64,000 nt of DNA from Trebouxia sp. TZW2008 (lineage: Eukaryota; Chlorophyta; Trebouxiophyceae; Trebouxiales; Trebouxiaceae): contig BDIU01000410.1 of the NCBI GenBank assembly GCA_002118135.1, forward strand, positions 124,001-188,000, given 5' to 3'. The notes under the pieces are model-generated. The model did not search any database, was not told the DNA's origin, and saw only the letters and a program-made list of their open reading frames with translations. Positions 3,252-63,200 of the stretch are shown here, piece by piece (position 1 is the first letter of the stretch; each line of letters begins with the position of its first letter). The position numbers and the translations under genes are program-made.

Positions 3252-6200
3252 CTATGCCTTGACTGCTGCATCCGCAAATCTCTCAGACTTGCCCAACATA
3301 AACTCCTCAAACCTCTTGACCTCACCAAGACTGCCGTAGCAGATCTGAGTTCTCTGCAAAATAGAAGCAGACCCGTCAAGCACCTTTCCCAAAAATGGAA
3401 AGAAAGGTCTTTGCCGTTGGGCGTCATAAGGGGAGCCTCTGTCTTAACAGGCAGACCTTGCAATGACCTCAATGCAATTGCATGACTGACGCGAAACAGG
3501 ACCTGCAGACCTTGAATACAATGATGTTTATGAGCAATTAAACTATCTAGCATTGATTGCTAGGTGTGTGTCGCACAACTCCTGTCTTGCCAGGCAGGCT
3601 TTGTTTGAGCGTTACGATGAGGACTTTGCATTCATCTCAGGGAATGTGCAACTGGGGTGGGGTCAAAGGATGTGACAAGCTGGACCACATTGGCACATGA
3701 GATCGTGAAACTAGCCGTCTGGCATCATGTGTTTAACAAAGCACAAGCAAAGTGTGTTGATGATTGCGCATTGCCACGCACAGTGTTTGAGACTCGCAAA
3801 ATAAGTCAACTGGTGCATCAAACACCGATTGCTGAAACATCAGACTAGCTGGAAACCCTGATTGTACCTAGCTGGACCCCTTGAGCCTGCCAAGCATGCT
3901 GTTATGGCAAATAATCAAACACGTTGTAAAGGTCAAGTTGTACCTGGTCATGCTTCTCTGCCACAATGTCCAATCCTGAAATGCCCTTGCCGTCTCCACT
4001 TGAGTGCCCTCCTGCCTTCTCAACCTGCACAATGGCAAACACACTGTTTTAGCCAATCTTTCATTGTGCTCAAATGTGATACACATGTGCAGCGCCTCTG
4101 GCCTTCTCAACCTGCAATGTTGCAATGCTGCTGTTGGCAACCTCGTTTCTGGGCTCAAATCGGAAGGTACAATACTAACAAGTTTTAGCAGTATGCATGG
4201 CGCAGCTCTTACGTCGCACATGACACGTGCAAATGCAGGTATGTGAAAACCTATATGAAGAGGTTGTCAGAGCATGAACCATACAAGTGGACACAAACTT
4301 GCACATGAGCAATGGTAAACACAAGCTTGCCAACAATGTCAGGAACTGCTACAGACAGCAGTTGTCAGTGAGTTGCAGCCTCTCAACCTGCAATTGTTGT
4401 CATGGAGTTGGAAGCTTACCAGTAGTGCCAAGGGAGCGACCTCAAACAGCAGCCTTAGCTTGGCCTTGGTGGATGGGGAGGTCACGTTTGAGAACACACC
4501 TTTCTCCTTCACAATAATCTGCATCATACAGCTGCCAATTCAGTCAACAATTGAGGTGATGACAACAATCACTGACGGAGTTTGTAGCATGTTGACTTGC
4601 AGTGGATTGACAGTTTACGTCTGCAAACGCACCCTTCTCCTTCACGACGATCTGCATCATACAGGGTGTCAAGTCCATGTGCAACTATTCGGCATATGAC
4701 AGTGATAACTGACTTAGGTTATCACATGTCAGCATGCAGTGGATGCAGAGGTTATGTTTGAGAACAACCCCTTCTCCTTCACAACAAGCTGCATCCCTCA
4801 TGCTGTCCAGTCAGTAGGCATAGCAACGCAGCAGGTAGAAGACTCACGCTTATACAGCAGCCCAGTTGGGCACAGGTCAGCATGCACTGTGGATCTGCTC
4901 TCCAGATAGGCAACACCATGTATCACCTGAGTATGTATGCGCAAGGCGCAGGTTGTAGCACAATTTAGTACAGGCATCTTAGGCACAACCATGAGCATGA
5001 CTCAAGGCGTGCGATTGGAGCTAATTGCATAGCATGCAGCACTTGTAGGTACAGTAATCTCTCAACATGAGGACACTCAAGATGAGGACATTCTTGATGT
5101 AAGGACAATGCAATTGGAAACCAAGCACTGCGTTCCGACTACACTGGTACTTTCGAGTAAGGACACTTCAGTGTAAGGACATTTTCCTTTGGAATTAAGG
5201 CAGTCATTATATCGAGAGATTACTATAATGCCCATCACAGCAATCAGAGTGACACACTGGTGCAAGGTGATTGAGAGCACTTGCCTGGAAGACGTCTGGC
5301 ACCATGCCTCCAGTGTATCGCAAGGTGTACTTCTCACCCACCCAGTAGCTGATCAGCTTCTCGTAGGCTGGGTTGTCAAAAGTGGCTCTCAAGTTTCCGG
5401 GAGAGAACATCTTACCCTCACCTGCAAAACCACCATTGATATAAACTGCATCGACATTAAAGAGCATGTGTCACTGTTGTTATAGACTGCATCAAGATCT
5501 AGAGAGTATCTGTGACATGTTGAGCTCTTGAACCCATCGTCCACATCATCGTCCACATCATCAAGGTTCACTTGCTTGCTGGTGGCATTCCTTGACCCTG
5601 CTAGGCGCATGAAGCAGCAATGAACTTCAGAGCTCACAGCTTAGCCTTGGCAAAGTCTGGAGGTAGCTGATGATCAGCATAGCTGACCACGTGCATTGAG
5701 CACTTACTAATTTACTGGCAAAGGCAGCGCATGCTATAGTCCACATGGAAGCTACTGGCACTGCTCACTTCACTGTCACTTCAAGCAATACGATCTACAA
5801 AAGTGAATGCCAGGCCCTTGTGCAGCAATATGCTTCAAGCATGGGATAGAAAGGCGCACAGAACAGGTCTCACCAATCTCTGTGGTCTCTTTGACATGGA
5901 CCCACTTGCCATCATCTTGCAACAAGAACTCGTGGCATCCTGGTGCGTCCTTGAGGGCAATGCAGTAGATGGTCCTGGGCCCGTACACTCCCATGCCTGC
6001 TGCTGCCTGCAAGCGACTTGAACAGCATCAGCTGTGGGATTGCGCGCTTTGCTGGCAGGGCTATGCAAATGACAGCAAAAGTGCTGTGCTGTGATAGACG
6101 TGCAGTCTGCCCAAAAAAGGCAGAAACATTGAACCCAGGAACTTGTGACTTGTGTGCTTGGGCAGGTGTGTCGACTGCTCAGAGTTGCAGGGAACTAGGG

Positions 6201-8140
6201 CTACTCAGGGTCCTGATTGAGAAGTCTTGCATACCAATCAAAGTCAACACCACATCCAAGCTGCTTCTCATCTGGAAAACTCTTTCAGCCAACATGCTGC
6301 TTGCTATTGCTAGGCAAAGCATAATTGATTGTACCAGTAACATTTGCTTTACCTGGTCTCACCCTGTGACGCAAATGACCTTGTTGCTGGGCCGTACATC
6401 AAACTCAGTGCCATTGTGATGACACAACTGAGACTAGACGTTGCAAAGGTCCATGAATGAACTCTTGCATGTCAATGCATCAACTTCCAGACCATCCCTA
6501 AGCTACTTTTGGATTCAGAGACTCCTATTTCAATGCTCAAATATGCCGTGTCTTTGCAGCAAATGCATGTTCACAGGGTCCTTGACAGGCGTTGAACAGC
6601 ATGGACGTTACTTGGTCTCGGCCAGTGACGCTGATGAGCTTGTCGCCAGACCATACTCCAAAGACGGTTCCAATTGCATTGTCCTTACAACTAACCTACC
6701 CAGTTCAGAAGATCAGAGACTACTGTACCTGGTCTCGGCCAGTGACGCCAATGAGCTTGTCGCCAGGCCACACACCAAAGATAGTGCCGACTGAGAAGTT
6801 TGTGTCCACAATGGAAGAGCCGTCCAATGGGTCAAATGCCACACTGAAACCCTCACCTGCAATCGGGACATGAAAAGTTGATGACATTTGGGCTGCAAAA
6901 GGAAGATCAGTCTAGTGGGGAAAATGCCACAATGAAACCCTACAGTGTTCCATGATAAAACTCAATAGACAAACCGTTTGTAGGTTGTGGTTTGCTTGGA
7001 AAAACAGTCTTGAGCTGCTGCTGCTCCGTGAGTCCCATTGTCATGTACAGCTATGACTACGGTGCCTCCGCCACCATCAACTGTCAGATTTGCTGCTTTG
7101 AGCTTCCTTTGTTCCTGCTGGTTGAAATAGGTTTGAAGGTATGCTGCGCGTGGTGTATTTGCCTGTCAGCCTCTGACACATTTGTGTGTGACAACAAGAC
7201 TTCCAGCTGCTGAACTTTGATGTCAACAGGCTCAGGACCTCCTCAGAACAGGCTCACTGGCAGGCATGAGATCAGCGCAATGTCGCAAACAGCAGCTTGT
7301 ACAGCAAGTCAGGTCACGTCATATCAGGTTGGATAAAAGCTCTTGCAGCACTTCAGGGGCCTGCTCAAAGCAAGCCCACTTGCAAGCCACTTGCAGGTTT
7401 GGACAGAAGCGCAGCAGCTTTTCAAGTCACTGAGGAAAATCAAGCAAATCCAAGGAGAGTAAAGCTGCACTGCTGACCTTCCATGTCACCGGGGTCAGGG
7501 ACCTCCTCAGAGCAGGCCCCCTTGCAGGTGTGAGAGAAGCGCAAAGCCTCAAACAGCACCTCAAATATTCATGTCAAGTGAAGTCAAAACGTGCTCACGT
7601 GCTGACCTTCCATGTCAACAGGCTCAGGGACCCTCACAGAGCAGGCCCCCTTGCAAGCATGAGAGAAGCGCAAAGCCTCAAACAGCACCTCAAATATTCA
7701 TGTCAAGTGAAATCAAAACATGCCTAGGTGCTGACCTTCCATGTCAACAGGCTCAGGGACCTCATCAGAGCAGGCCCACTTGCAGGCGTGAGAGAAGCGC
7801 AAAGCCTCAAACAGGACCTCAAATATTCATGTCAAGTGAAGTCAAAACATGCCCAGGTGCTGACCTTCCATGTCAACAGGCTCAGGGACCTCCTCAGAGC
7901 AGGCCCACTTGCAGGCGTGAGAGAAGCGCAAAGCCTCAAACAGCAGCTTGTCTGCCAGCATGTCCACTGCCAGCTGCTCATCACCAAAGCTGTTCACACA
8001 GGCTGTGGCGCCACATGATGCTGTCCTCACCTACAATGCATGACAACATCATTGACTGAGTGCTGACATTGTCTGCGTGAGCCTCATTTTGGGTCAGAGC
8101 ACCAAGCCATTGACTGTTTGATTGATGCCTGTTGCTTCTG

Positions 8141-8175
<35 letters not shown>

Positions 8176-16200: not shown

Positions 16201-19200
16201 AAGCAATGCACTGGTGCATGACTTGCAACACCCTCTAAGCCAGAGGGTAAGCAGAAAGAAAGACAGCCAGTGGCTGGCAACAGACATGTTATTGGCAGTC
16301 ACAGAGCATGTGGCACTGAGAGCAGTTATGTTTGCAGGCAGCTCATGACGTGGTTGCCCTTGCTGGTTTTCACATCAAGCGTCAGGAGTTTGAGCCTGAG
16401 TATGACAATGAAGCTGAGATGATCATTGCTGACATGGAATTCAAAGAGGATGACACTCAGGTTGGCACGTTGCTCTTAAGCCTCATGCTCACTTCTGCAA
16501 ATCCCAACATTGCCCTCTGTCATCTTTTGAGGCATGTCAAGACGCTATGTCAGCTGTACTATGCTGCCAAGGGGAAGCATAAGCCACAGAATGTCTAGGT
16601 TGTCTTCTTGCGATTCAATACATGTCTGCATGAGACTACCGCAATCTGCTTATCTTGCAGCTTGGCAACTTTGCAACACAAAGTCGCCACTCTGACTCTC
16701 CTGATCATTGCCAATGTATGAGAGTAATCCCTTGCATGAGGTCCTTCACCCATGCGATCTGCAACAGACAGGCTTTTTGGCAGGCACTTGCATGACATTC
16801 TGACACATGCTTAGGCAATCACACCACAAGCACACAGACATGTTACTGACACTTCCTGCAGGATGTATGCAGCCGCTTTCTCACAGCCACAACAGCTCTG
16901 CGCTGTGCTCATGTGAACCTCTTCATCCAGCCCTGTGTAAGGCATGGCTATCAACTGCAGCACTTGTTGTCACAATGCAGGCTATCAACTGCATTGTGAC
17001 AACAAGTGCTGCAGTTGATGACGATGCATTGCATAACGCTGGTATAGAGGCGCTCTATGAGTACAGTCCATGGCTATTGCATGTGACAAAAATCAGGCCT
17101 AACACCATTGCTACAACTCACTTGGCAATCAATTGCAGACTCAAGCAGACATTGTTGAGATATTTTTGCAAGCAGCTTCCTCAGCAGTAATAAAAAGAAT
17201 ATCTGTCATCAAGCATCATCATGACAGCCTATATGCACAACCTTGCTGCTCACTGACTTCTGTTGCAAGACATTCCTTGCTAAATTTGCCCCTTCAGCCA
17301 ATGCCGTATCATGTTGTGCTAGCCTTTGCAAACACAACCATTGTAAGCATGGCAAGAAAGCAATGTCCACTGTGCCAGCCCTTGCCTGCAATGGAACACC
17401 ACAAAAGCTTCCCAAATTCCAAATCGTGACTCACAGTCAATGTGCATGGCTGTAGGAGGACCTTGAGGATAAGGTGCGCGCGGCTGATGCTTACAACAAT
17501 CTGTGATTGTCCTGGAATAGAGCAATGTCTCGTCGTGACAGTTGCTACGCAAATCAGACCTCACAAACTTTTCTCAAACCCTAAAGCCTGACCCACGGTC
17601 AATATGCATGGCTACAGGAAGACCTTGAGGAGAAGGTACGGGTGATTGATGTCTACAACAGCCGCCTCACAGAGCGAGAGCGGCGGCGCCAGTTTGTGAT
17701 AGACAGGAAGCTGATCAATGTCAGGAAGCAACAGGCTTTGGACAGGAGGCGTAACCCAGCAGAAAGGGAGCTTTACGCACGGCTGAAAGCAATCGCTAGA
17801 TACCTTCCTCAGCAGGAGTTTGAGGTGCTGTCTGAGGGCGTGGTCACCGAGACCAGGCTCAGAATCCGCATACAGGTGGGCAGTTTGCTTTCTTATACCA
17901 AACAGCAAACGTTGTAAGTGTGAGGGAGTGTAAGAGAGCTGTATGTAGGCCGCAAGCCATTGCCAGATATTGTGTCTCAGCCAGAGTTTGAAGTGCTGTC
18001 TGAGGGCGTGATCACAGACACCAGGCTGGGAATGCGCAGTTAGATGTGCGTCCTTTCTTGCCTCAATAAAGAGCAAGCATTGTGGGTGTGCGGGAATGTG
18101 GGAGAGCTGTATGCATGCCTCAACGCAACTGCTCTATATCTTCCTGATCAAGAATTTGAAGTGCTGTCTGAGGGCATGGCCACAGAGACCAGCCTAAGTA
18201 CTCGCATCGGTGGGCTTCCTCGTTTCTTGTACCATCAGGCAAAGGACCTGAACATTTGCAGTGCCAAATGCTGCAGTCATCAGGACTTTGCTGATGAGCT
18301 TCCAGGAGTGCATCAATATCTGTGTGTAGACATCCAGATGCTGCACTGCATGCTGTTGTTGCCACCCAAATCATTTCTCAGCATGTTGATGCTGAGCTGT
18401 GCAATGATGACCAACAAGCATCTCGCAGCGAATCCATTGTATTCAGGAGCAGAAGGAGCACAGGCGGGCAGGCATCAGGACCTTTGCCAATGCTGAGCTT
18501 ATGAGGCAGACAAGAAGCGCAAGAGCAGTGCAGTCAGCACTTGCGCCTGCTGTTCCAGGGTCTCTTTTCAATAAGCATGTTTTTATCATGTGATCTCCTG
18601 ACCTGTTGCACTTGCTTGTCAGCACAAAAACTCTCAAGAGGTTGATGGACTGCAGGAACTGAAAGAGTACAGGCGGGCAGGCATCAGAACCTTTGCGGAT
18701 GCTGAGCTGTACGAGGCAGACAAGAAGCGCAAGATTACTGTTCAGCCAGTGCTTGCGCCTGCTGCTCCAGGGTCGCTTCCCAGAAACTGGCAATATCCCC
18801 TGGGCTCAGCAGATCTGTCAGCACCGGTGAGTGATGTTATAGCCTGAAGCCTTGCTTCGCCTTGGCTGCTCCAGGGTCACTATCAAGCAATTTGCAGTGC
18901 CCCTTGAAAATCAGCTGGTCAACATCGATGAGCATGTTCCAGCGTCGCGTGACACTGCATGACGCTTGCATTGTTAGTGTTCTGTGAATCAAGTGGACCC
19001 GCAGCTGTTCAGGCTGTGTCAATGTGTGCCTGCAGATCTCAGCATGCAGTCATGACACTATTTTGCATATATGTATATGCTGAGGGCATGCTTTTTGTGT
19101 CCTAAGTACTCAGCCAATCAAGTAGCTTCAATTCCTTTGGTCTTGACCTGTGTCAAAGCCGAGTCGACTTTGCAGAGCACCGAAAAGGCCTTTCAAACAT

Positions 19201-20817
19201 CATCAACAGGATTGTGCTTCACATGCTGTGCGTTCTGGCAACAGCTTCTGACTATGCCGCTCTAGGGTTGGGGTGGAGGGTCCATACCCAGGACAGCATC
19301 TGCCTCAGTTCTGCCACCCAGCAGGAAGGGCAGTGGGCTGCCTGCAGAGGGGCTGCACCGTGCAGCCCCTGCCCTAGTGGCCTGGAGGGCTAGACGAGGC
19401 ATAGCCCTTGACATCACAGCCCTGCCGGGAACAGCCCTTCTCTCAGCCAAGGTGAGTCACCCTTGCCAATATATGACCACGACGCTGATGCCAGGTACAG
19501 TGATTTCTTGTTGTGACGACTGCTTTGTTTCCCAAAAGCAGTCTTTATATCAGATTGTCCTTTCTCAGAAGCGCCACTGCAGTCGTAGTGCAGCGATTGG
19601 TCACCAAATGCATTGTCCTTACATCAAGGATGTCCTTATACTCAATGTCCTCACAAAGAGAAGTTACTGTATTGCGCGCTAGCACAGGTGTGTGGGTCAA
19701 ACCCCCTGCTCAAAGCTGTGCTATGCTTTGTCTGACTGAACCTTCACACTCTCTATTGATAGCCTGGCTTTCACTGGAGCTGTGCTGTGTGCCGAACGTA
19801 CACACACAGCAACAGCCTCTGCTTGCAAAGCCCTGTCAAACAATGGCCATGCTGTGCGTTGACTGTTGTGCTGTCACAGGAGCGCAACCTATGTGCTGAA
19901 GCCCTGCTGCTGCCAGTGAAATTTCTGGAATTGCAGGCTCTCATGATGTTAGAGGGCCACAGCTTCTGCGTAGAAGCTATACTGAGCTTTGGCTGTACCT
20001 TCACACCTTCATTGACTGCTGAATTGTCACAGGAGCGCGAGCTGTGCGCCCAGGCGAGGTTGCTGCCTGTTCATTACCTGGAGCTGAAGGCTCTCATGAT
20101 GCGGGAGGGCCAAAGCAAGGGGTACATCTCCCGGCAAGAGGCACGCACCTTCTTCAGACTGGAGCCTGTCAAAGCAGTCAGGTCTGCGAGTGCCCTTGCC
20201 CCTTACACTGCAATTGCAAATAAACTTGCACTGCAATTCACTGCAACACACTTACATTGCAGCTACAGAGCAACACTTACACTGCGACGCTTACATTGCA
20301 GTCACATTGCAACTTTAAGGATTACCCTCAAGTTGGAGAGATAGGGTTTAACAACCTTCAAGGGGTTTTAATCTTCCTCAGGGTTTTTTTCTTGGAAACA
20401 ATGCGGCTGATGGGTTCAAGGTGTTAGGGCGTGTTTGCAGTATGCATGGCAGCGTGCAAGCCCAACAGGCTTCAATGCAGGGGATGCCCTTGCTGTTTTG
20501 GTGCTCAACAGCTTGCTTGCTGTCAAGATGCTAGAGAATTTACTGCTTTGGGCACAGTGTGCATCATGGTCCTTGCAGCTGCTGTGGTGCATTTGGCAAC
20601 ATTGTGTGAAAGTATGCTTTAAATGCTGTTTGGACATGCTGTTGCGCTGATTTGCAGGGTATACGAGCTGCTTCTTGCGTCTGGATGGATTCCTGGGCCT
20701 CCAAATGCTCCAGGGTCACAGATCGCAGCGCCAAATCAAGCACATCTGTCAGCAACAGCAACAACAGTCCTTGAAAACTCTGAAGCTGAACAAACAGCAG
20801 TGGTCAGCAATACATGA
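13291..20817 (+). CDS. ADA2: Transcriptional adaptor ADA2 (12 exons, 727 aa)
   Basis: Subunit of GCN5-containing histone acetyltransferase complexes (SAGA type), acting in the nucleus. Exons: 13291-13379, 13495-13687, 14199-14303, 14653-14937, 15345-15555, 15770-16023, 16338-16460, 17618-17875, 18656-18826, 19266-19451, 20033-20181, 20658-20817; phases close. The ZZ zinc finger (residues about 32-80) shows YHCNYC, KCAVC and CLDCFS and ends FPLFHPDWG. The SANT/Myb part follows (ADEELLLLEAIDMAGFGNWG, then HYFDIYVNSPNFP). The middle has the ADA2-specific FHIKRQEFEPEYDNEAEM and VYNSRLTERERRRQFV. The SWIRM domain is at the C terminus (LDITALPG, ARLLPVHYLELKALMM, then VYELLLASGWIPG). The linker encoded at 14730-16023 is Gln/Ala-rich and poorly conserved. 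The ends of exons 5 and 6 are the least certain. Several introns contain decayed copies of neighbouring exon edges. Confidence 0.93.
13976..14152 (-). mobile_element. MITE copy C
   Basis: About 176 bp in an ADA2 intron, opposite in orientation to copies A and B. It begins TACAGTAAACTGTTG and ends gaagtcactgtggta. The interior has repeated tgtccttac motifs, the reverse complement of those in copies A and B. Confidence 0.7.
15659..15766. repeat. (TTGC)n / (GATT)n simple repeats
   Basis: Runs of gcttgcttgc and gattgattga lie just before the acceptor of the ADA2 exon at 15770. The polypyrimidine tract of this intron is made largely of simple repeat. Confidence 0.85.
16950..17019. repeat. Perfect 31-bp inverted repeat with 8-nt loop
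   Basis: The left arm 16950-16980 (atcaactgcagcacttgttg and on) and right arm 16989-17019 (ending gtgctgcagttgat) are exact reverse complements around the loop gctatcaa. It lies in the ADA2 intron between the exons ending at 16460 and starting at 17618. In the transcript it would form a strong hairpin. Confidence 0.9.
17395..18215 (+). repeat. Junction copies around the ADA2 exon at 17618-17875
   Basis: An upstream copy near 17436-17500 repeats the acceptor and first codons (gtgcatggctgtaggaggac versus gcatggctacaggaagac). Downstream copies near 17982-18040 and 18148-18210 repeat the 3' end (tttgaagtgctgtctgaggg). The polarity matches the other clusters. Confidence 0.8.
18430..18900 (+). repeat. 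Junction copies around the ADA2 exon at 18656-18826
   Basis: An almost full-length copy at about 18440-18560 carries a one-base loss (gctgagcttatgaggcag versus gctgagctgtacgaggcag) that breaks the frame. A third, partial copy of the 3' part (ctgctccagggtcactatc) lies downstream near 18865-18900. Confidence 0.8.
19496..19671 (-). mobile_element. MITE copy D
   Basis: 176 bp in an ADA2 intron. Ends are TACAGTGATTTCTTGTTGTG and, read inward, TACAGTAACTTCTCTTTGTG, matching terminal inverted repeats bounded by TA. It is in the same orientation as copy C. Confidence 0.8.
19870..20000 (+). repeat. In-frame second copy of an ADA2 SWIRM exon start
   Basis: At 19880 a gtcacag acceptor is followed by an open reading of ERNLCAEALLLPVKFLELQA, a divergent copy of ERELCAQARLLPVHYLELKA in the exon at 20033. 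The two are in one uninterrupted frame. It lies upstream, as expected for an acceptor-side copy. Confidence 0.75.
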
Positions 20818-24700: not shown

Positions 24701-24833
24701 GCTCAACTTGACGATGTGACGCAAAATGCTGGTGTGCAGCGCGCTGCTCATTCGCGGCGTTACGCCCAGAAACGGATGCAGCTGTCCTCACGCAGAAGGG
24801 CAACTGCGTTCCCGCGCTCACGCTTGTATACAT
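21753..24833 (-). CDS. DUF1989 (urea-carboxylase-associated) family protein (4 exons, 326 aa)
   Basis: Exons: 24833-24405, 23950-23726, 22899-22723, 21902-21753; phases close. The first about 90 residues are Arg/Ser/Ala-rich and may be an organelle-targeting region. The family core follows: AVELKAGQYFKVINTHGEQ, then VVDFFGFGL, MSMHHSHDENHHLIPQVGDS, VTNLRRPIFTLLEDTGPGVH, HNSCTSNLHAAL, PPSPFNLWM and finally PGDYVLFRVEMDCIAVMSAC. DUF1989 proteins occur next to urea carboxylase in bacteria and as stand-alone proteins in algae and plants; their reaction is not firmly established, so no activity is assigned. The start codon is the first ATG of the open frame. Introns hold three sets of junction copies. 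Confidence 0.88.
22226..22790 (-). repeat. Donor-side copies of the DUF1989 exon at 22723-22899
   Basis: The plus-strand string cccagctgagctgttggcc, the 3' end of the exon, occurs at the true exon (near 22737) and again near 22575, 22413 (diverged) and 22246, each preceded by a donor-like accttagcag or its variant. All extra copies are in the downstream intron, spaced about 160 bp. Confidence 0.9.
22855..23275 (-). repeat. Acceptor-side copies of the DUF1989 exon at 22723-22899
   Basis: The exon start (plus strand gctgcatgcaaattgctggt near 22853) recurs near 22980, 23100 and 23222 with matching acceptor context ttcctgca. All are in the intron upstream of the exon. Confidence 0.85.
23430..23770 (-). 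repeat. Donor-side copies of the DUF1989 exon at 23726-23950
   Basis: The true donor edge (plus strand taccttgccaatttgctgtt near 23723) is followed downstream by copies near 23569 (tcttgccagtttgctgttg) and 23433 (cctttccaatttgctgttgg). Confidence 0.85.
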
Positions 24834-25286
24834 GCTTACAACTCAATCGAGGTGTCACTAACAGACAGTGTGACCAGAGCACAGCACCGACAATGGTGCT
24901 CAGGCTTTCGGTGGTTTTACGTGAATTTCGTAAAAGGTGCTTTTTGTGAGTGTGGATGGTACGCAATGCTGCTATGAGCTGCAGCAGCGGAGCTACAGAT
25001 TTTGTCTATCAAAGTATCAGCTTGATGAGTGCAGTTCGAGCGGTGCTGCGCATCTACCCGATCGATTTGTTCCCGACAGCTCGAGATTCAATCAATCAAT
25101 CAAACAAAAATAAAACCTGGCGTTTCGGCTCTCATGAAGTACAGTACAGTGACACAGCCGTTTGCAATGCCGGGATGCCCAGTGGCCGAATGTCAAAGCT
25201 TTGACCTACAGTACAATTTGAATCACTGAAATGCTTGAAATCTGAATGTGGGGTGACTTGAATACACATTCAATTTTGTACTGAAC
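24834..25286. other. Intergenic spacer
   Basis: 453 bp between the DUF1989 start and the RsmE-like stop. It must hold the DUF1989 promoter. No motif was assigned. Confidence 0.5.
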
Positions 25287-30079: not shown

Positions 30080-33000
30080 TCAAGGGACATCATCTGGCAT
30101 CAAGCACTGATCCCGCTCATCCTGGCCATCGTGTGACATGCAGAAGCTAGATTCATCTGCTGAGGATGATCGCATGAGCTCATCTGTCCGCTCAACATCA
30201 ACATCCCCAACGACACGACTGACTTGGACAAAATCTGACAACCGCCCAGCAATCTCTTTGAAGGTGGGTCGTTCTTGAGGCTGACTTTTCAGACATTGTC
30301 TAAGTAGAGATTCCATGACTGGGTGTAGATCTTCAGGGATGGCCAGTGTGCGCTGCTGGATGCCGACCATATAGATAATATGGGCATGCCGCAACCCTGC
30401 CCAAGCCCTACTGGATGTGAGCATCTCCCATAGCAGCACTCCAAAGGAGTACACATCAGCAGCCTGCATGAGACAAGCCAATAAGGGACAACAACAAAAC
30501 AAAAGTTTATGGATCATTTCTTGCTCGAAGTCTTTGTATCAAAAAGAAATGAAACCATCATTTCGCGCACCGGCTCATCTACCTTGACCTCAGCAATCCA
30601 AATTTGGTACAAACGATGCGCCGAGTATTCCCATTCCAGCTTCCACCATGACCTCACGAGCCATATGGGTGTGGGTGCTAATCGCAATACCAGCACAGCA
30701 CAGCACAGCACAGCACAGCACAAGGCACTTACAAGGCACTTACAAGGCCTCCAAGGCTTTGATCATTGCAGACATCATGACAGTTCTGTGTAGAAATGTA
30801 TACAAGAGGGTTGGGACATAGGATGCACTTACTGGACCCATATCTGCTTTCATCATGACCTCAGGAGCCATATGGTCTAGTGGTGCCGTACACATTGCCA
30901 GCCACATGTGCAGAGGCATTAGCAGTGCGGGACAGCTCAGCAGAGCATATCACAAGGCACTTGCGGGTCAAAGTTCGCATCCACCGACAGTCGATAGGTA
31001 TATATCTTTTATATGTTTAAAGCTTTTATGCATGCCAGACATTGTGACGCTTCTGGGACATGTAAGTCTGTGCAAGACAAATGGACCATCTCACCGGACC
31101 AAACCATGACCTCAGGAGCCATGTGAGTGATGGTGCCATACACATTGCCAGCCTCACGCGCGGAGGCATTGGCAGTGCGAGACAGCTCGGCAGAGCATAA
31201 CACAAGGTAATTGCTGCTAATGTTTCAGATTCATCCATGCCAGACATTGCAACAATTCTGGGACATGCGAGTCTATGCAAGAGGAGAGTAGAACACAGCA
31301 TGATGCACTCACCGGACCAATTTCTGCTTCGATCATGACCTCAGGAGCCATGTGAGTGATGGTGCCGTACACGTTGCCAGCCACACGTGCTGAGGCATTG
31401 GCAGTGCGAGACAGGCCAAAGTCCCCTAGCTTGGCTTGAAATCCGTGCGGGTTGATGGAGCAGGATGTCAACATCACGTTGCCACCAGACAAATCCTGCA
31501 TGCAAAACAGGATGTCAGTTGACAACACGAAAATGCTTCACATAGAGAGGCCAAAGTCCCCTAGCTTGGCTTGAAAGCCATGTGGGTTGATAGAGCAGGA
31601 TGTCAGCATCACGTTGCAGCTAGACAAATCCTGCAAGCAGGGTTAGGGCTTTTGAAATTCAAAGTCACACTGCATAGCTGGGTCAGTCTTGTGTGGGACA
31701 AACAAGTGTGTATCACAAGGATCAGCTCGGCTTTAAAGGCAGATGGGTTGATAAAGCAAGCAGTCAACATCATGTTGCTGCCAGGCAAAATCTGCAGTGG
31801 CTGCAGACTGGCGGCCATGATACATCACTCTTTCAGGGTGAAAGCAGAAAGAATTGAAACCCATGCGACAAGCAATGGCAGGATGAAACTTGTAAACACG
31901 CCCAGGCCTGTTCAAATTCCACCAAACACAAATTGCAGAAGATCCTGTTATGCAGTCCTCACAGGGCCTGAGGCGTAAGGCTTGAAATTGCAACTATGCC
32001 AGCAAACGCATCTACTGTGACCCTTTGCCATACAGCAAGCTTCGGTAGCTATGTGGTAGACCACACAGCACATGCATGTGCCAGCAAAGTTGTATGCAAA
32101 CCTCAAAGGAACATTACTGGTGATTTGACGATTAGGCACAGTCGCTCAGTGGCATGCAGTGGTATTTATGCTCTGACATCCATGCACAGGACAAACCTAT
32201 CAAAAACAACCCAAAAACACAAGAGAAATAATAGTAATGAGATGATGCATGCGCCCTCCATGAACAATGTTGTGCCTGCGCAGCAACCATCGCGGATGCA
32301 ATCCCTCACAATTGCACACAACAAAATGTCAGTAATGGAGCAGCGTGAACCCAAAACTAAAGAAGAAGCAAACTACTTGAGCAATGACAACAGGAAGAGG
32401 GAGGGATCTGATCTCATGGACAATATTGTGGCTGTGCAGCAACACCATGGTGCACCTCACAGTTCAAAGCTCTGTATGTTAAGCACACATGATGATTGTG
32501 TCTTGAATGGCGAAGAACAAGATGGCAAAAGATCTCACCCCATGGACGATATTGTGGCTGTGCAGCAACGTCATGGCGGATGCAATCTCCAGAGCCGTCA
32601 TGGCTATGGTTCGCAAGTCTGGTTGGCTGGTTGTGGGGTTGCGGCTGCTCCTAAACCACCCCTTCCACACAGCATCCTGAAAACCAGAATGCAAATCAGG
32701 CACATCAAAAAGACATCAAAAAGCATTGGAGAACATTGACAATCAGGCCAGGTAGTCATGGGCTTGCGGCTGGTCCTAAACCACAACTTCTACACAGCAT
32801 CCTGTAGAACAGAAGCATAGTGAATTTTGATATACACGATGACATTGACCTGACCTGTTCTGAGTGCAATTCATGCAGGAGTACCCCTCCTGCACGGCAG
32901 AGTTTCAGTCTGTGTATACGACCTGAGCATTGTTCTGGGGCTGCGGCTGGTTCTAGACCACCCCTTCCACACAGCATCCTGAAAAACAGAACACAACTCA

Positions 33001-36994: not shown

Positions 36995-37058
<64 letters not shown>

Positions 37059-40000
37059 CTGCTGGTTTTTGCTTTTGAGAAACAAGCTGAGAAGATGCAA
37101 GAATTCACCTAACAGGTTGCAAGCCGCCATGTTCATGTGCAGCACCCGCCAATCTCCAGCTTTTGATGTGTCCAAGAAAAGGAATGCCTCCTCGTAACAA
37201 GCCAGCGAACGCATGAGCTGCACATTGCTCTGCCGCGCTTCAGACTCTGCCCACTTGTACTCAAGCTGTCTGACCAATAGCTCAGCCATATTGCCCAACA
37301 CAACGCTCCTTGTTGCATCAAAGCTCCTAGGCTTTTGACTGACAAGACACCTGCTCACATTCAGAGCTATGAGCAACGCACTGAGGAGACCCGGCAGACA
37401 GCAAAGGTGTTCACAGCATTGAAGACAACACAAATGTCTGAGCTATGTATGCATCACGCAGCTGTGCTTGACAGTAAGTTGCCCTGTGTAGCAAGCAGTT
37501 GCTTTGAGCCTAGTCATACATCATACACAAGCTAAATTGCAGCGCTGCACTATGCTGCAGATTGCCTGGCAGAACGCCAGCAATTACATAAGAAATAATC
37601 AATAAATAATATAAACACATAAATAAAATAAATGGGAGACAAACACATGCATGCACGCTTGCAACAGCCCAAGCAATCTCCCATTTTGCAGAAGCCATGA
37701 CACCACAATAGCTGCAGTTCAGGTTGCTGACGAAAATGGGGGCGATGCATGCATTTTCAGTAGACAAGTACTACTGCTGAGACTTACAAGGTCCCAAGGC
37801 GGTGTCCGTTGGCTGTGATCAAAGGGCTGCCCGCATAGAACCTCAGGTCATACTGAGGGTCCTTGACAAAGTAGTTTTCTGAGAACCTGCATGGCACAGC
37901 AAAGTGTGAGGTGACCATCTGCACCCCACTAGGTGATGGTTTGGGAGCCATAAAGTAGCCTGAGGACATTCTGTAGTCCTCTGGGCTAGCTGGTGGAGAG
38001 ACAGTGCAGAGCTAGTGTTGAGTTCAGCAACATATTCCATATGTACAAACAGATTTACGTGGTACCTGCAAACCAGAATGGCAGGTGATCATCTATACCC
38101 TACTAGGTGATGTTGCTAGAACATAGAACAAGCAGAAGTTTTTGGAAGCTATTTTGCTTCAGGCAGGAAGAACTATTGCGCAGAACACCATGCACAGTTT
38201 TTGAGCAACAGGTGCATCCTACACAAAGCACATTGCCTCTTACCTTCAGCAGCTGTCAACTTTCGAACATTGCTGCAATGGGAAGACAGGAGCACGCTTA
38301 CGGCAGAGCAGGAACCCACGAGCATACCTGACAAGCTCAAATAGATGCAGCACAAGCTGATGCTGCAGCATGCTGCCGTTGACGCCCTGGCCACTTGCAA
38401 GACCAGCATGATTGCAAACAGCTTGATTTGCACAAAATGCAAAGCCGTTGGTAACAATGTTTGGTCCTTGCATTTCAGCAAGGCCTCACAGGCAGTCTGC
38501 TGAAGCACAGGTCTCTTGCCAACATCTGGTGAGGCTTCAGAAAAGACCGAGCGTGAGTTTCCCCTACCATAAGGGCAAATCCAGCACCTGAGGTTGTCCT
38601 TCAGGTCTCCAATGACAAGCAGCTAGTGGCTCAAGCAGTACAAGTAGCGCTTGTGACCTGCACTTATGTCTATCAGACCATGGCTGCGCACCTGAAATCC
38701 TTGTCCAGGTCTTCAATGACAAGCAGCTCATGGTTGACATCAGAAAAATTAGATTGCAGAAGACCAATGCAGGAAGTTCAACAGCTCCATACCTGAGATC
38801 CTGTTTTACATCTTGAATGACAAGCAATTCGTGATTGAGGTTGAGGGAAAGGCCAGGCACAAACAAACTTTTGAGTGTTTGTGTAATCCTGTGTCATGTA
38901 CAACCATGTCTGTGCTGTGCAGCAACTAGATCTGTTCTGCACCTGAGATCCTCTTTCAGGTCCTCAATGACAAGCAGCTCATGGTTGGAGTTCAGGAAAG
39001 ACCAGGCACAGAAGCCCCAGCGGTCAGGGCAAATGCCTGGGTCCATGATACCCACTCCTGCCAGGATGTGGTAGGCGTCTCCAGTCAGTAAGGTACAGCA
39101 CGCCATGTCGGACTCAAAGATCTTGCACACCAGCCTCAAAATGCTCTCTGCAATGCATAGCACTGTTCAACTAGCCATTTAATGATGATGGTTGAAACAG
39201 AGGGCGCAACACGCCATATTCACTCAAGTAATCTGACACACCAGCCGTAGAATGCTCTCAACAATGCACAGCAAGGCGCCACACTCAAAGGTCTTGCAAG
39301 CCAGCCTTGATATGCTCTCTGCAATGCATGACATTGAGCACCTAGCCATTTTATCATGAATAGTGAAAAGGAAGTACGCCATGCCATGTCACACCAGCCT
39401 CAAAATGCTCTCTGCAGTTTGCAGCAAGCACTTGTTGGCAGTGTTGAGTTTGTAGGCAATTGCGCGCAGGCAAATGCAGAGTTTGTGGAGATGACCAAAC
39501 ATCTGCTGTGCAGAGCATACTGCAGGTATGCCCAGCAGCCTGCAGCAGCCTGTGCTCAGACAGCTATGCTCAAACTGCATAGCGGTTTGAGGCGCTGCAC
39601 TATATGTCTGTAGACACCAAATTGATGGCAAAATGACTAACATGATATGGTACAAGAAGCGGACAGGAATCAACATCCTGGCTGAGTCTCAGGCATGCTA
39701 CAATGCATGTCATGTGAGCTGATTTGAGTCACTACTAACATCATTATCATCAGGACTTGCAAGCATGCTGGTGTGGTGCAATGACCCAGCCTGATGCGCA
39801 CATGCTGTTGCAGCAAGCCAGCAAAGGGCAATCTGACTTACCTATTTCTGCATCCTGTGCTTGACGAAGCTTATGGATGCCTTCTGTGGTTTGCGATCTC
39901 TCAGGACAGCATGCTGGCTTTGGAGGTCCCAGCAGAAAGGTCTTCCTGGCTTCAAAAGGCGGCAGCTGTGCAAAAGCTTTCTCTGCCTGTTCCTCTGCTG

Positions 40001-56000: not shown

Positions 56001-57873
56001 AGAAGCTCTCATAGCAACGGCATGTGTTGCAACAAGTCTACGCACTGTTGGTATGCTGGCTTAACATTGCATGCCTGGTTCTCAGTTGTTGAACTATCAT
56101 CATTAAAAATCATTTTTTTTCATCATTTCATTGAACTATCATCATTTTCTGTTTTATGTGCACACAACATTCAGGAGATATTGCTACCCAGCTAGGGCAA
56201 GCTGAAGATATGCACTGCCTGAAAATGATGCTATCCAAGGCCATTTTGCGTCGACACAAACGGATAGTTATTAGTACTCTATCGTTTTCACAGCTGCATT
56301 CACAACTGCATCATCAGTACCTTTACCATATGCAATGCCATATGCTTTCCGCATGACGATGACACCATTCTCATGTCTCAAGGGCTGTGATGTGCAGCTG
56401 CAGCCGTGTATGACGGCGCTCCGCTAAGCTGGACCTGGTGGGGAATGCAGAAGGTGTACCTGATTGCGTATGAAAAGGTAACTCAAGATTCAGAGAAAGT
56501 TTTGTTGCACGCTGATATGAAACAGCTTGGAATCCAAAGGAACAAAATGGGCAACACTGAACTATCTTGGATGTTAACTTGCGTTCATGCTGAATGCAGT
56601 AGTGCAGCCGCCTAGATTAGTGTACGGTTGCACTAGGGTCCGCTTAATTTGGCTCTTTTGGGCTCTATTGCTTTGAGGCTGAAGCGAATGCTAAACTACG
56701 AGTAATCTTTGGAGGCGTAAACCTACATCAGTCGTAGTAGCCAATTAAACAATTAGCGTAAACGCCCCTGAAGGACTTGAACTCAGGCTGTGAACGGATG
56801 TTGCTCATGCAATTATAAAAGATATAGAGATTTTCCTTCTACTTCGTTCATGTATGGGTGCGTGAACCCATGATGCTACCGTTAGTTTTTCTTCAAGAAT
56901 GACACAATTGCTGTTGCTTGGATGACAATGATGCTTGCAGAAAGTCGAGGAGTTGTTGGACATGTTGGTGCCAGGAGGCAGGTATCAGAATGAGCTCAGT
57001 GTCATGGAGGACTGTTTAGTGGAAGCTTGTGACAGGGCCAGAGAAGCACACAGCCACTTAGGTCAGTTATTGGACGGGCCAAAAGACGCATCTGCACCTC
57101 AGACATCCAATTCAGATTTGCCTTTGGTGTGGAAGGAGAAGCAGCTGCGCAAGAAGCAGATTGCATGGAAGCTTCCAAATGGGCGCAAATTGACTACAAG
57201 CTGCATGCAGGTCTGCAGTCAAGAGACATATGTTGCTCACAAGCACAAAAGCCAAGAATAGCGGCGCTAGCGTGTTTGCAATGCATTACCTGGAATAGTG
57301 TTGCAAGCCCGTGTAGTTGCTTTGCACAAGGTGTGTCACAGTGTATATGCATCAAGCTCTTTCACAGTTGTTGACGCGCTCTCAAGAGGTTTTTAGACAA
57401 GCTCAAGATAGATTTGGTGGTTCCCTGCAAGCCCCTGACTCTTGAATGGTCCAAAAGGCACTTGAGTTGTGAATGTCTGACACAGCAGTGGTGACTGTAG
57501 GTGTTGAGCGTGGACCTGAATCGCATCGGTGCCTTGCACAAGCTACGTAGCCTGATGCGCAACTGCTGCCTTGTGGGATTGATAGGGGACATCAACGCAG
57601 GCAAGCTCTTCTGTATGCAGATTGCTGGGTGACAAAGATCACCCAGAAAGGTATAAAGCACAATGATGATGATTTGCGTCGCTTGGGTGCATTATTCACC
57701 CAATTGGGTGACAGGGCTCACCCAAGTTGTAAGGTATAAATATGATGATCTGCATTGCTTTTGTGCGCACCTAGCTAGGTCGTAGAACCTCACAAGAAAG
57801 TGTGCTGAAGGATAGCTGATGATGTGCATTGATGGCGGATGAATGTGAAACCTCATTAAAAAGCGTATAGATC

Positions 57874-57913
<40 letters not shown>

Positions 57914-59407
57914 CGATGACGATGATGATGATGATGATGATGTCTGCAGGCAAGACCACCTTGTACAGGTTGCTGTTGGGCTTGCAGCCCATTGCAAATG
58001 GGCAGGCAGCAAGCAACGCCACAAGATATATTGCAGGAGAGCAGTTGAAGCTTCGCACTTGGTCCGGCCTGCAGGCCACATCTCAGTCACCAATCATCAT
58101 TGACACTCCAGGAATGTTTGACCCAGACAAGACGTTGACTGATGCTGCTAGGTTCCGCGGTAAGAGGGATTGTCATTCAAATTCAAGCCAGCACGTTCAT
58201 CTCTTGCATGATGTAAAGTTCAAGCTAGCACTTTCATCTCTTGCATAGTCTGATAACCTTTGAAGCATGTTTATAGGACACAGCAGAAAGGTCAGAACTG
58301 GCTGGAAGCATATGCTGCTTTGTGTACAGCAAACATCAGAAGCAACATTGCAGCGACACCTGATTTGCAGTCAGTAAAGCCCTGTCAGGGAACCGCAAGC
58401 TTCAAGTTTGCTGCACTGTATCTCACGCCATGTAGGTTTTTTCACATTGTAAGCCAAATCTAGACAGGCTTGCATGGCATTGCTTCTCTGCTGTGTGACC
58501 AATAACACACCAGTAGAAACAGCACTTCACCCCATGTAAGCATATGTCACAAGGTGGTCTTGCCGACGAGGTGTTTTGGGCACATCTGTTGGACAGCGTA
58601 ACTTGCCAAGCGGCTTTGCGCAAAAACACAAGTGAGCAAAATGCGCGAAACCAGTTTGTCAAGCTCTGCAGGTGCAATGGCGTTGTACGTAGTGGTTGTG
58701 AGTGCACAGCAAGCGGGCAGGAATGAGTTTAACGAGAATCTGAGGGACAGCATTTTGGAGATTGTCAACCTTGGCCGGCCAGTACTGATCTGTGTCAACA
58801 TGGTGAGCGAGAAATTGCAGTCCAAGTGGTGGGAAACTGCCAGCGATACAGCTAGAGCCACCAAAGAGATCAAACACAGCCTTGAATCACGAGCAAGTCG
58901 TGGCCACGGTTCCATCACAGTCTTCATGACAGAGTGCCTGTTCTTCAAGGAACACGAACAGAAGATGATGGAACTGAATGTCAAGACAGTCGAGGACGTA
59001 AGCGCTGAAACACTCATCTTGCCACGTCTGCAGAAAAATTTCTTCGCATTGAATGCTTGTATGCATGAAAGTTTGCATGAGTCAGTGTTTGCACAAAAGT
59101 CAGTTCAATGTTTGCATTGACCCTGGCTTGAATATTGACTGCCTACTAGTGGCATTGTCACATGCATATCTGTGGTCCTCAGATAGGCATTCCAAGATTT
59201 GTTGACCTCACAATAAATGCAGCTGCGATGCGTGTATGTACAGGTGAGTACGCTCCATGTGCAGTCAATCTGGTTCTGTCTTTGCAGGTCAGGAAATGGA
59301 TTTGCCAAACTGCCCAGGATTGCGATTTTGATGTTCCTACTGCCATCTATGATGCAGACGACTTTGAGAACGTACTGAGCCCCACCGGACCTGGAACTCC
59401 AAACTAA
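50002..59407 (+). CDS. Class-3 lipase-like / dynamin-like GTPase fusion protein (19 exons, 1255 aa)
   Basis: Exons: 50002-50493, 50571-50753, 51112-51252, 51667-52012, 52457-52655, 53163-53400, 53634-53739, 54089-54204, 54459-54781, 55272-55395, 55807-56050, 56175-56273, 56398-56477, 56941-57210, 57501-57600, 57950-58159, 58672-58997, 59183-59233, 59288-59407; phases close. Residues about 165-330 resemble a class-3 lipase (RLIITGKGTAGAIAQEATLQ, then LCVTFGAPP), but the nucleophile elbow GHSLG reads GKGTA, so the catalytic Ser is missing. A hydrophobic stretch lies near 806-834 (AWLLLGLVCAMTFAVPEALI). The C-terminal GTPase has the P-loop GDINAGKT (1016-1023) and DTPG (1072-1075); the G4 motif is NMVS instead of NKxD. 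A GC-AG intron (GCAG|GCAAGC) splits the P-loop. The 3' end is uncertain: an open frame with two hydrophobic segments follows in a shifted phase. Exons 12, 14 and 18 are the weakest. Confidence 0.75.
57874..57942. repeat. (ATG)n microsatellite abutting a splice acceptor
   Basis: About 23 ATG/ACG units end eight bases before the acceptor at 57949, so this intron lacks a normal polypyrimidine tract. Confidence 0.9.
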
Positions 59408-60207
59408 TCAGGTTGTTTGAAACAGCAAGAAGCAGCACAAATTTGGCTGGCAGCTTTGCAGATTCTAAAGGTCGTTTTGTACCCTTACAGCTGTGCATGT
59501 ACACATCATCACAGAGCTCTTCCAGAAGACAGAACTTACAGAATATTTGATGCTGAGCAAGCACAAAGATGCACTTGCCTCTGGATCAGCTTGTTTGTTC
59601 CCACAGAACAGAATTGCTCATCAGTCTATACTTGCTCGAGATTTGATAATGACAAAATTTACAGTGCGTCCAAGGCATCTTTGTCAAGGGTCAGAACAGC
59701 TTGTCTGCTGCTATGCTGCAGTGTGTTTGCTCTTCATTGTCACCAAGGCATCATATGCAAGAACTATAAGAGCAGCCACAGGGCCTAGAGTAGCTTTGCA
59801 AAGATCTAATCAGCTGAGAGTTGCAGAACAGCTTTGCACGCTAGGCACGTTTTGTAACATGCTGTTGCCCGTTATTCGCTCCTGCTTGTTGGTAGCTGTT
59901 CTGCTGTTAGCTGTCACCAAGGCGGTGAACGGAATTCTATAGCGGAAGCATTTTTCAGGCGAGCAAGGCCTTGTAACATGCCATTGCGCAATGGGCGTCA
60001 TACTCAATTTGAGTCGAGCAGCATTTTAACTGGACAATAAAAGCTTTCACAAGTTTGTGCTGTGAAAACCAAAGCAGGCCAGGGTACGCTGCTCAATATG
60101 CAGTACTACAGGCATGAAATAAAGAATGAACAACTGCTGCAAATACAGAAGTAGCATCAGCCAAGACTAAGCAACACAACACAGAGTCACTAGCGGCGAC
60201 TTGAATG
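59408..60207. other. Convergent intergenic region with a 150-codon ORF
   Basis: Between the GTPase stop (plus) and the tryptophan synthase stop (minus). The plus-strand ORF 59493-59942 has two hydrophobic segments (CYAAVCLLFIVTKA and LLPVIRSCLLVAVLLLAV). A second open stretch at about 59408-59467 reads LIRLFETARSSTNLAGSFAD in yet another frame. Together they look like a continuation of the GTPase gene after a frameshift or an unrecognised intron, but this is not proven. Confidence 0.45.
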
Positions 60208-63200
60208 TCACATGTTACGCTGGCTAGACAAGTCTTTGATTTCTTCATCAATGTTCCCAGAAATGTCTAGGTACTGCGCTGCTGTGTGAACGTCTTTGTC
60301 TCCTCGGCCACTCAGGTTGATGACAACCTTGGAACCAGGTGCTAGCGTAGGACACAAGTCCTGCATCACAGGAGGCACAGCTGAGTAGTTCAATAACACA
60401 CATCTGCAACGTATTTTCTGGGAAACAGAAGCATCATCAGCAAGCTACAAAGAGCTCTTCTCATGACAAAGCAAGAGGGGACGGTCGTAGCACTCGCCAG
60501 TGCAGGCGTAAAGTCTGCTATGCCAAAATGCTCGTGATAGCAGCCAAATATTGCTTATCAAGAGCGCATGCATGCAGCAAAGTCCTATATCAGGATAGCA
60601 ACATACTTGCCTTCAGTATGGCAAGATATGAGGCATGCAAAAGCATGATGCAGAGTTCTGTAAGTTGCCATTGTATGCAAGCAGTCAAAAGCACTGCTGA
60701 AACAGCATACCTTCAGGTACGCAAATGCGTGTGGCGTTTCCAAAGCAAATATGGTGCCCTCAACTCTTGGGACTTGCTGGAAAGCTTCTAAGGGATGCAA
60801 GCAGTCCAGTGCAGTGACACAACAGCAGCATACTTTCCTTAAAATACACAACAAAGTAGGGTGTCTTCCAGTGCAACGCCACGATAGCAGCAAACATACC
60901 TTGAGGTATGCAAATGCGTGTGACGTTTCCAAGGCAGGTATGATTCCCTCAAGCCTTGACACTTGCTGGAAGGCTTCCAACGCCTGTTCATCAGTGACAG
61001 CGTAGTACTCAGCTCGCCCAATCTCACTCAGGAAGCTGTGCTCAGGACCAATGCCTGGATAGTCCAACCTGCAGCACTGATCACACTACCTTAGTGATTG
61101 TCAATGCATTTGCACCAGTATATAGGACTGAGGGTGCTGTATAGATCAATGTGGCCCGCACATCAGTGACTGTATGAGCTCAGCAAGCGCGATCTCACTC
61201 AGGAAGCTGTGTTCAGGACCAATGCCTGGGTAGTCAAGCCTGCAGCATACATCAAGCCACTTCAGAAACATGTATTTTTGAGACCTAATAAGAAGGGCTG
61301 TAGAGGTGCTGTATAGATCAATCTGGCCTGCTAGTCAGTGAGTGCATAGCACTCAGCCGGACCAAACTTACATAGCTGTGATCAGGATCAATGCCAGGGT
61401 AGTCTAGCCTGCAGCATAGACCAACCGAGATTGGCAAAAGCATAAAGGCACAGATCTGCACCTTGCAGTGATTGATTCCCATGCATGGAGTGGAGTCAAT
61501 GGCCTGTTCTCAAGTGGATGCAAGGATGCATTGGTGGACGATGAATGGATGCAGGCAGAGGGACTAAAAAAGCGCTAACAGCCGACCAAAAGGACATATA
61601 ACTAAAGACCGTATGAACAGATGAACACATGCATGCAGGAGTGAACAAGAAAAGCAAAGCAAGCGAATTGGACTTACCCAGCGCTGACGGAGTGTGGCTG
61701 AATGACCTGCTCCTTAGCGGATACATGAATGATCAAACAAATGCACATATGAAAGAGTGCATGAGTACATAGTAAGCTGCATACTAGCAACAGCTTGTTT
61801 GACTTGATTGGTGATCTGCAAGCAGACTCACAAAAGTGCACTGATTAGCAGATTTTGGCCTGTTTCACTATCAAACTTACCCAGCACTGATAGAGTGGGG
61901 GTCAATGACCTGCCCCTCAGCATCCTGCAGCAGCAGGCTGAAGCTGCCATGAAGCACGCCAGGTGACCCCTTAGTAATGGTGGCAGCATGCTTGTCGGTA
62001 TCCACACCATGACCAGCTGCCTCAACACCTGCAAGGATTCTAACCCTTTAGCAGAGCAGTTATGGCGCTTGTTGACAAAGAGACGACGTCCAGCTGCCTC
62101 CACAGCTACAGGCCGGGTTATGTAAAGAGCATTGGACAATGCAACACATGCCTGTGCCCGGCTCAAGCTGCAATGCACCATGCCAGGCCAACGACTGGGC
62201 CAAGCTGGCAGTACTTGAAAGGGACCATCTAATGATGCTGACATCCACTTCACCTCAGGCCCCCTTGCTGTGGTATCTTCAGCACATACTCTATACTGAA
62301 TGTGCTGTTCATGAATCACAGTAACAGCACGGATGTCAGCACAACCTATCGCTTGCAGCTGCAGATCCACAAATGACTCATCATTTCAGGGGTACTGTTC
62401 TGTGTGGCTGACATCTCGTTGCACACACAAACAGTTGTCATGCTTACCTATTAGTCTGATGTCAGCATCATCCACAAACTCATGGAACAGTCCGATGGCG
62501 TTTGAACCGCCACCCACACAGGCTAGCAGCACATCTGGTTTGCCGCCCATTTTCTCTAGACATTGCTGCCGTACTTCTTTGCCAATAACTGCTTGGAAGT
62601 CACGTACCTGCAGACAGACAGACACACATGTCAAGCCACATGGACAACTGCACATGCAGACCACTGGCTGGAATGTGACGCAGGCGCTAGCATGCATATG
62701 TCAAAAACCAACATGATGCAGCTTCTGTTGGTGGAAAGAGTACGGCAAGCGTCGCACAGTGAGTGATGGGTGACAGTTGTGCAAAAGCAAGCAGTGTTGA
62801 TTCTTACAACTGCAGTACTGCAAAAGCATGCATTGCATGCACCATAATCTCTACCACAGAGCTACAGCGCACCAGACATGTGACAACCCGTCGCAGCTGC
62901 AAAACCCAGAATGCATCACGCGGTCAGCACAGCTGTCACAAAAGAGTCAACAAGCACCAGACTCTACAGCACATCATGCAGTAGACTTACCATCATAGGG
63001 TATGGGTGCGGCCCCGCAGCAGACCCTAGAATGTAGTGAGTGGTTTCCACATTTGTGACCCAATCTCTGATGGCTTCTGAAGTGGCGTCCTTAAGCGTGG
63101 CAGTGCCTGAATGTACTGGCCTGACTTCAGCGCCCAACAACCGCATTCTGAAGACATTCAGTCTCTGACGCTCCATGTCTTTTGCACCCATGTATACAAT

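Follow-up and report, generated by a model that had tools for sequence, protein, structure and literature searches.

The nearest described case that we found to the introns studied here is the RdRp gene of potato, where, as outlined by Ma, Lan and Niu (2016, PMC4974935), sequence spanning an intron-exon boundary was tandemly duplicated and some of the upstream exon copy now belongs to an intron. In the Rogers model, as summarised in a review (PMC3443670), duplication of an exonic AGGT gives a new intron. Small tandem duplications without a mobile element can result from fill-in by CST-Pol alpha-primase at staggered breaks, according to PMC8355091, which also sees a hint of break repair in the natural insertions of humans and plants. 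Introners, reported chiefly from rapidly evolving lineages, green algae among them, are a further source of intron sequence (overview in PMC9860276). Here we analyse a 64-kb stretch of the green alga Trebouxia sp. TZW2008 (contig BDIU01000410.1, positions 124,001 to 188,000; hereafter the window), part of a 68.5-Mb nuclear genome in 527 contigs, in which introns carry serial copies of the borders of their own exons. It is very likely that frequent local tandem duplication across existing splice junctions lengthens these introns; growth by repeated duplication of this kind had been put forward in a previous inspection of the window (the sequence-only reading), and it is the best-supported explanation in the present analysis.

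The algal introns share with potato RdRp a tandem duplication that crosses a junction and turns exon sequence intronic. In the outline of the potato case there is one gene, one event and a new intron, whereas the alga shows 38 copies in eight genes, in arrays of up to five, and its existing introns are lengthened. The Rogers model, in the terms of the review, shares with the alga the tandem duplication of gene sequence bearing splice-like sites; its new intron comes from a duplicated exonic AGGT, whereas the algal unit, where its origin could be resolved, includes pre-existing intron sequence and its splice site, most plainly in the SBPase gene, and no intron derived wholly from duplicated exon was found there. 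The process is growth of existing introns and not intron gain of the AGGT type, which the sequence-only reading had cited as a known proposed route. Fill-in by CST-Pol alpha-primase is described for engineered breaks whose overhangs are short (49 bp in one) compared with the algal units, and it could apply to the alga by analogy. No description of introns with serial copies of their own exon borders was found in a full-text literature search, which covered top-ranked results by title and abstract opening, with subscription journals mostly outside it, and the passages reached by intron terms in the genome papers on Coccomyxa, Asterochloris and two Trebouxia do not mention the pattern. As far as we found, the pattern is new in its extent, and its elements are ordinary.

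Exon-edge copies, their polarity and their arrays

Gene models were built with a purpose-written spliced protein-to-genome aligner whose splice-site weights were trained on CCT genes, and the zero-length exons that it proposed were disregarded. The window sample comprises four homology-modelled genes, SBPase, kinase and TrpB on the minus strand and ADA2 on the plus strand, with 19 introns and 38 exon edges. ADA2 was modelled by spliced alignment to P0122, a homologue from Trebouxia sp. C0006, and has a TADA2A-like Pfam match; the kinase was modelled by spliced alignment to P0166. The models leave out the SBPase exons below 5285, the other unmodelled ends of SBPase, TrpB and kinase, the first intron of ADA2 and the introns of 14938-15957, a region in which two templates disagree. 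Outside the window, a Cpn60/TCP1 family search gave ten CCT/Cpn60 genes, nine of which contribute the 34 introns (68 edges) that pass a score and length filter, and one (C352) contributes none. The whole sample consists of 53 introns and 106 exon edges in 13 genes. The exons of SBPase and TrpB are:

8401-8297, 8030-7865, 6856-6729, 6006-5874 and 5421-5285, minus strand: SBPase exons, spliced alignment to SBPase chain 7b2o
63233-62991, 62607-62448, 62028-61881, 61068-60900 and 60360-60268, minus strand: TrpB exons, spliced alignment to TrpB chain 5ey5

The query for a 3' edge contained at most the 70 last exon bases and 15 intron bases, and the query for a 5' edge was its mirror image. Each edge was aligned to its own-side intron, to the wrong-side intron if that one was modelled, and to the reversed strand, and 1,904 comparisons with introns of other genes provided the null, with a maximum score of 110. 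Own-side copies above this maximum were found at 23 of the 106 edges, split evenly between 3' edges (12 of 53) and 5' edges (11 of 53). Wrong-side copies were found at one of 68 edges (one of the 34 3' edges, with a score of 111, one point over the null, and none of the 34 5' edges), and the reversed-strand comparison gave no inverted copy above the null maximum at any of the 106 edges. The sole wrong-side pass lies within a copy, at 18447-18611, of the entire ADA2 exon 18656-18826 on its upstream side, as expected from a duplicated unit longer than the exon. The statement in the sequence-only reading that no case with the sides reversed was seen stands for 67 of the 68 wrong-side comparisons, with this single one-point exception, and equal placement of copies on both sides was not seen in the 53 modelled introns.

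The copies occur in genes on both strands. The four window genes, where six had been named earlier, show own-side copies at 15 of 38 edges and in 11 of 19 introns, and one of these edges, the 5' edge of TrpB exon 62028-61881, passes by a single point (111 vs 110). The CCT/Cpn60 genes show them at eight of 68 edges, in seven of 34 introns and in four of nine genes; the counts for both groups were taken from the listed scores. At least one detectable copy is carried by 18 of the 53 introns overall, so the earlier expression "most introns" has to be reduced to about a third, and to about a fifth outside the window. Copy-bearing introns exceed the others in length (median 602 vs 314 bp, P 2e-5, 53 introns). 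Furthermore, a hit-table test on four other families (HSP70, tRNA synthetase, kinesin and aldehyde dehydrogenase; CCT, the fifth family searched, was already used in the sequence test) gave 240 hits, with 17 pairs that share a profile range: the polarity is as expected in 12, none is reversed and five are neither. These five, all from kinesin, may be adjacent exons with overrunning hits, and the 12 include ambiguous cases: one with nearly equal ranges, one of copy against copy, and two hits overlapping on the genome.

The 38 copies are distributed in 23 arrays, 11 of them multi-copy; the proposed range of one to five copies holds, with five at one SBPase exon. Steps between copies range between 77 and 259 bp with a median of 153.5 bp, a broader range than the former estimate of about 100-190 bp. 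Several arrays have near-constant steps (SBPase 129/129/129, ADA2 168/168 and TrpB 171/169). The decay with distance from the exon that had been described is seen within arrays, since nine of the 11 multi-copy arrays have their most similar copy nearest to the exon, but not in the pooled data, where distance and identity show no correlation (rho -0.08, P 0.64), and an age gradient along arrays was rejected at that level. Copies diverge from the exon by 4-39% and are therefore not assembly echoes.

SBPase is the clearest case of recent duplication. Its 129-bp unit consists of an exon end and an intron start, and the intron part is identical at 50 of 53 bases. The five copies downstream of exon 8030-7865 have identities of 0.96, 0.92, 0.93, 0.71 and 0.86, with 129 bp for each of the first three steps. 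The features of this gene are:

7865..8030, minus strand: intact SBPase exon from which the 3'-edge array derives, with its donor at 7864 (alignment to 7b2o)
7203..7819, minus strand: five serial copies of the 3' edge of exon 8030-7865 in the downstream intron (7819-7721, 7690-7592, 7561-7471, 7423-7353, 7315-7203)
6729..6856, minus strand: intact SBPase exon (spliced alignment)
6879..6941, minus strand: 5'-edge copy of exon 6856-6729 in the upstream intron (edge test)
6345..6676, minus strand: two 3'-edge copies of exon 6856-6729 in the downstream intron (6676-6605, 6421-6345; edge test)

Beyond the modelled SBPase exons, self-BLAST of the window shows further repeats at 4469-4815. The remaining arrays of the window are:

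17618..17875, plus strand: intact ADA2 exon (alignment to P0122; Pfam TADA2A-like)
17441..17498, plus strand: 5'-edge copy of exon 17618-17875 in the upstream intron (edge test)
17948..18215, plus strand: two 3'-edge copies of exon 17618-17875 in the downstream intron (17948-18059, 18113-18215; both steps 168 bp; locus-unique)
18656..18826, plus strand: intact ADA2 exon (spliced alignment)
18436..18611, plus strand: whole-exon copy of exon 18656-18826 in the upstream intron (step of 209 bp, longer than the 171-bp exon)
18848..18938, plus strand: 3'-edge copy of exon 18656-18826, downstream (edge test)
19872..19963, plus strand: 5'-edge copy of ADA2 exon 20033-20181 in the upstream intron (edge test)
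31313..31495, minus strand: intact kinase exon (alignment to P0166)
31544..31796, minus strand: two 5'-edge copies of exon 31495-31313 in the upstream intron (31639-31544, 31796-31724; edge test)
30613..31183, minus strand: three 3'-edge copies of exon 31495-31313 in the downstream intron (31183-31081, 30933-30820, 30697-30613; edge test)
32252..32454, minus strand: two 3'-edge copies of kinase exon 32601-32539 in the downstream intron (32454-32405, 32305-32252; edge test)
38580..38912, minus strand: three downstream copies (38912-38802, 38801-38688, 38644-38580) of the 3' part of a probable exon located around 39154-38930 (sequence comparison)
61881..62028, minus strand: intact TrpB exon (alignment to 5ey5)
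62044..62248, minus strand: two weak 5'-edge copies of exon 62028-61881, upstream (62112-62044, 62248-62158; edge test)
61672..61775, minus strand: copy of the 3' edge and donor of exon 62028-61881, downstream (edge test)
60900..61068, minus strand: intact TrpB exon (spliced alignment)
61154..61423, minus strand: two copies of the acceptor and 5' edge of exon 61068-60900, upstream (61254-61154, 61423-61326; steps 171 and 169)
60704..60805, minus strand: copy of the 3' edge and donor of exon 61068-60900, downstream (edge test)

The locus of the probable exon (39.1-38.6 kb, minus strand) has no Pfam match. The two weak TrpB copies score 111 and 119 with a longer query and 111 in the main test, and they do not exceed the null maximum of 112 in another run.

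Fate of the copies

Differences per site between the 38 copies and the intact exon amount to 0.166 (nonsynonymous) and 0.367 (synonymous), a dN/dS-like ratio of 0.45, and the copies contain 45 frameshifting gaps and 10 stops. A ratio of about 0.5 would be expected if the exon changes at silent sites only and the copy everywhere. The copies behave as neutral-like debris; with this ratio, the frameshifts and the stops, they do not show the open frame under constraint that characterises alternative or mutually exclusive exons.

The copies could also be functional as alternative or recursive splice sites, an AG/GT border being acceptor plus donor, and the arrays would then regulate splicing. The spliced aligner put zero-length exons at two AG/GT copies (window 6353 and 60711), and, when the query includes the junction, the acceptor AG is retained in all 14 copies. 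However, zero-length exons were also placed at two gene starts away from copies (8727 and 63380), probably as a scoring artefact, and retention with exon-only queries is not significant for either site (GT in 10 of 18, with 67% expected; AG in 11 of 13, P 0.08). Selection on copied splice sites is not clearly supported, given this drop of the acceptor from 14 of 14 to 11 of 13 and the lack of signal at donors. The exon parts of the copies, moreover, decay as if neutral, and a splicing role is judged quite improbable.

Local tandem duplication and the probable growth of introns

Self-BLAST of the window gave many local direct near-repeats, as expected from the sequence-only reading; 76 of the 78 same-strand pairs lie within 800 bp and two are further apart. 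A sample of 244 kb, which comprises the window, the CCT loci, eight 10-kb loci at arbitrary positions and some small loci, contains 197 local direct pairs and nine inverted pairs, vs none in one Markov-1 resample, and chance is therefore excluded. This sample has 91 repeat clusters, covering 11.5% of bases, and the eight arbitrary loci (L051-L058) have 32 clusters in their 80 kb. Clusters are spread somewhat unevenly, with a mean of 1.97 and a variance of 3.00 over 39 tiles of 5 kb. In modelled genes, near-tandem pairs cover 20.4% of intron vs 12.6% of exon bases.

Green algae are among the lineages from which introners are reported (overview in PMC9860276), and introner-like or other mobile elements inserted in introns would also produce repeated intron sequence. 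Introners, however, are families copied into many genes, whereas a search of the 68.5-Mb genome with two algal units, one from SBPase and the other the ADA2 copies, gave no match outside their own loci, so that dispersal at unrelated loci was not seen for either. The copies match the adjacent exon, and the small number of distant same-strand pairs in the window (2 of 78 beyond 800 bp) points in the same direction; insertion of mobile elements has a negligible probability.

A mechanism specific for exon borders, for example one coupled to splicing or RNA, would differ from duplication indifferent to gene structure. Some alignments stop a few bases beyond the apparent splice site, and 23 of the 34 local pairs in a set of 42 modelled introns (TrpB, SBPase and CCT) touch an exon edge: 14 cross a donor, nine cross an acceptor and 11 are intron-internal. 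Random placement of the same unit lengths, however, predicts 29% donor-crossing, 30% acceptor-crossing and 41% intron-internal pairs, that is, 59% edge-touching vs 68% observed (intron-internal, 32% observed), and exon constraint eases the detection of edge copies. As the edge share is near random placement, edge location needs no special mechanism. Intron-only arrays exist (C87 and C431), intron parts are co-duplicated in several cases, and near-tandem repeats overlap coding-like sequence at close to the background rate (26.1% vs 25.1%). Exon-border specificity was rejected as inseparable from random placement plus detection bias, and a border-specific mechanism seems unlikely. High-identity pairs had suggested non-tandem copying with a constant spacer of about 40 bp; this was rejected on account of the cases with co-duplicated intron parts and of one striking example, L052:9478, which is a 29-bp tandem array.

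The intron parts of the units were compared in TrpB, SBPase and CCT, one SBPase acceptor case being too short, and in six of the 13 cases, including one out of register, their similarity is above 95% of the null. Growth of introns by frequent junction-crossing duplication has to be weighed against three observations. The intron part shows no significant similarity in the other seven of the 13 cases, where duplication bounded at the splice site is possible; duplications are uneven, with no passing copy in five of the nine CCT/Cpn60 genes with usable introns; and self-BLAST shows long stretches of the window without local pairs. A fainter intron part is expected in older cases, in which both of its copies drift, and the faster decay of two unconstrained copies would account for the seven cases.

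Frequent local tandem duplication would act as follows. Short stretches of the nuclear genome would be duplicated head-to-tail, and, introns being short and exons about the size of the unit, many units that touch a gene would span a splice junction. Where a unit includes a donor, exon end, donor and intron start would be added to the downstream intron, and where it includes an acceptor, the mirror image would be added to the upstream intron. The intact junction would be the spliced one, and only the copy joined to the remaining exon would stay under coding selection; the extra copy would drift, collect indels and stops and lengthen the intron, and repeated duplication would generate serial arrays. 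The initial lesion may be a staggered break or paired nicks, followed by fill-in and end joining, or replication slippage, and later slippage or unequal exchange may extend the arrays. Own-side polarity would follow from geometry and coding selection, without being special to the mechanism: a unit that crosses one junction places the extra edge in that intron, and other units usually break the coding sequence.

The smallest spacing of the 91 clusters climbs to 140-180 bp and then drops sharply (34 clusters at 140-179 bp, six at 180-219 bp), in a distribution where short units are possibly under-detected, as Tandem Repeats Finder reports shorter ones too. The drop above 180 bp hints at a nucleosome- or Okazaki-sized limit. 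We tentatively consider that ongoing duplication limited to about one nucleosome or Okazaki-fragment length could be the main source of intron sequence in this lineage; the short units that may have been missed, some of which Tandem Repeats Finder detects, and the nine of 38 steps in modelled genes that exceed 180 bp qualify this reading. If true, intron length would be a running balance of junction-crossing duplications vs deletions, readable gene by gene.

Transposon-free intron lengthening is usually inferred from sequence decayed past recognition. The introns of this alga preserve a genuine and exceptionally readable record of their growth by tandem duplication: the adjacent exon, which is the source, is under selection and hence legible, so single growth events can be identified, put in order and compared from strain to strain. 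Genome assemblies of close Trebouxia strains have been described (PMC11523091 and PMC12712428). Any duplication across a junction also introduces a splice site that competes with the existing one, and the system could measure how often splicing changes, introns arise and duplications are tolerated.

Other observations in the window

The closest named relatives of the TrpB gene by identity are Trebouxia sp. C0009 (91%) and Asterochloris (89%), and that of the ADA2 gene is Trebouxia sp. C0006 (71%). The Trebouxia sp. C0009 protein nearest to TrpB (P0003) is named "Bifunctional NAD(P)H-hydrate repair enzyme" and is probably a misnamed or fused model. The homologues of ADA2, TrpB and kinase, between 13 and 64 kb of the window, have nearby numbers in Asterochloris (Astpho2 8237, 8241 and 8248), which suggests a conserved gene order.

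The region 44010-44532 (plus strand) contains 69-bp tandem repeats, 7.6 copies, within a long open frame; in-frame tandem duplication therefore occurs in coding sequence too. In the kinase region, 32656-33102 and 33365-33627 are inverted copies with 73-84% identity, in contrast with the direct copies elsewhere. A dispersed repeat family of about 110-180 bp, with 71-78% identity and members on both strands (963-1073, 5050-5227, 13975-14151 and 19495-19671), is separate from the exon-edge copies. More local repeat arrays are found at 22234-28567 (minus strand), around the genes of a DUF1989 protein (PF09347) and an RNA methyltransferase (PF04452). Finally, simple repeats are present at 57870-57942, (GAT)n, and at 36996-37064, (CTG)n, the latter corresponding to a glutamine run in a minus-strand open frame.

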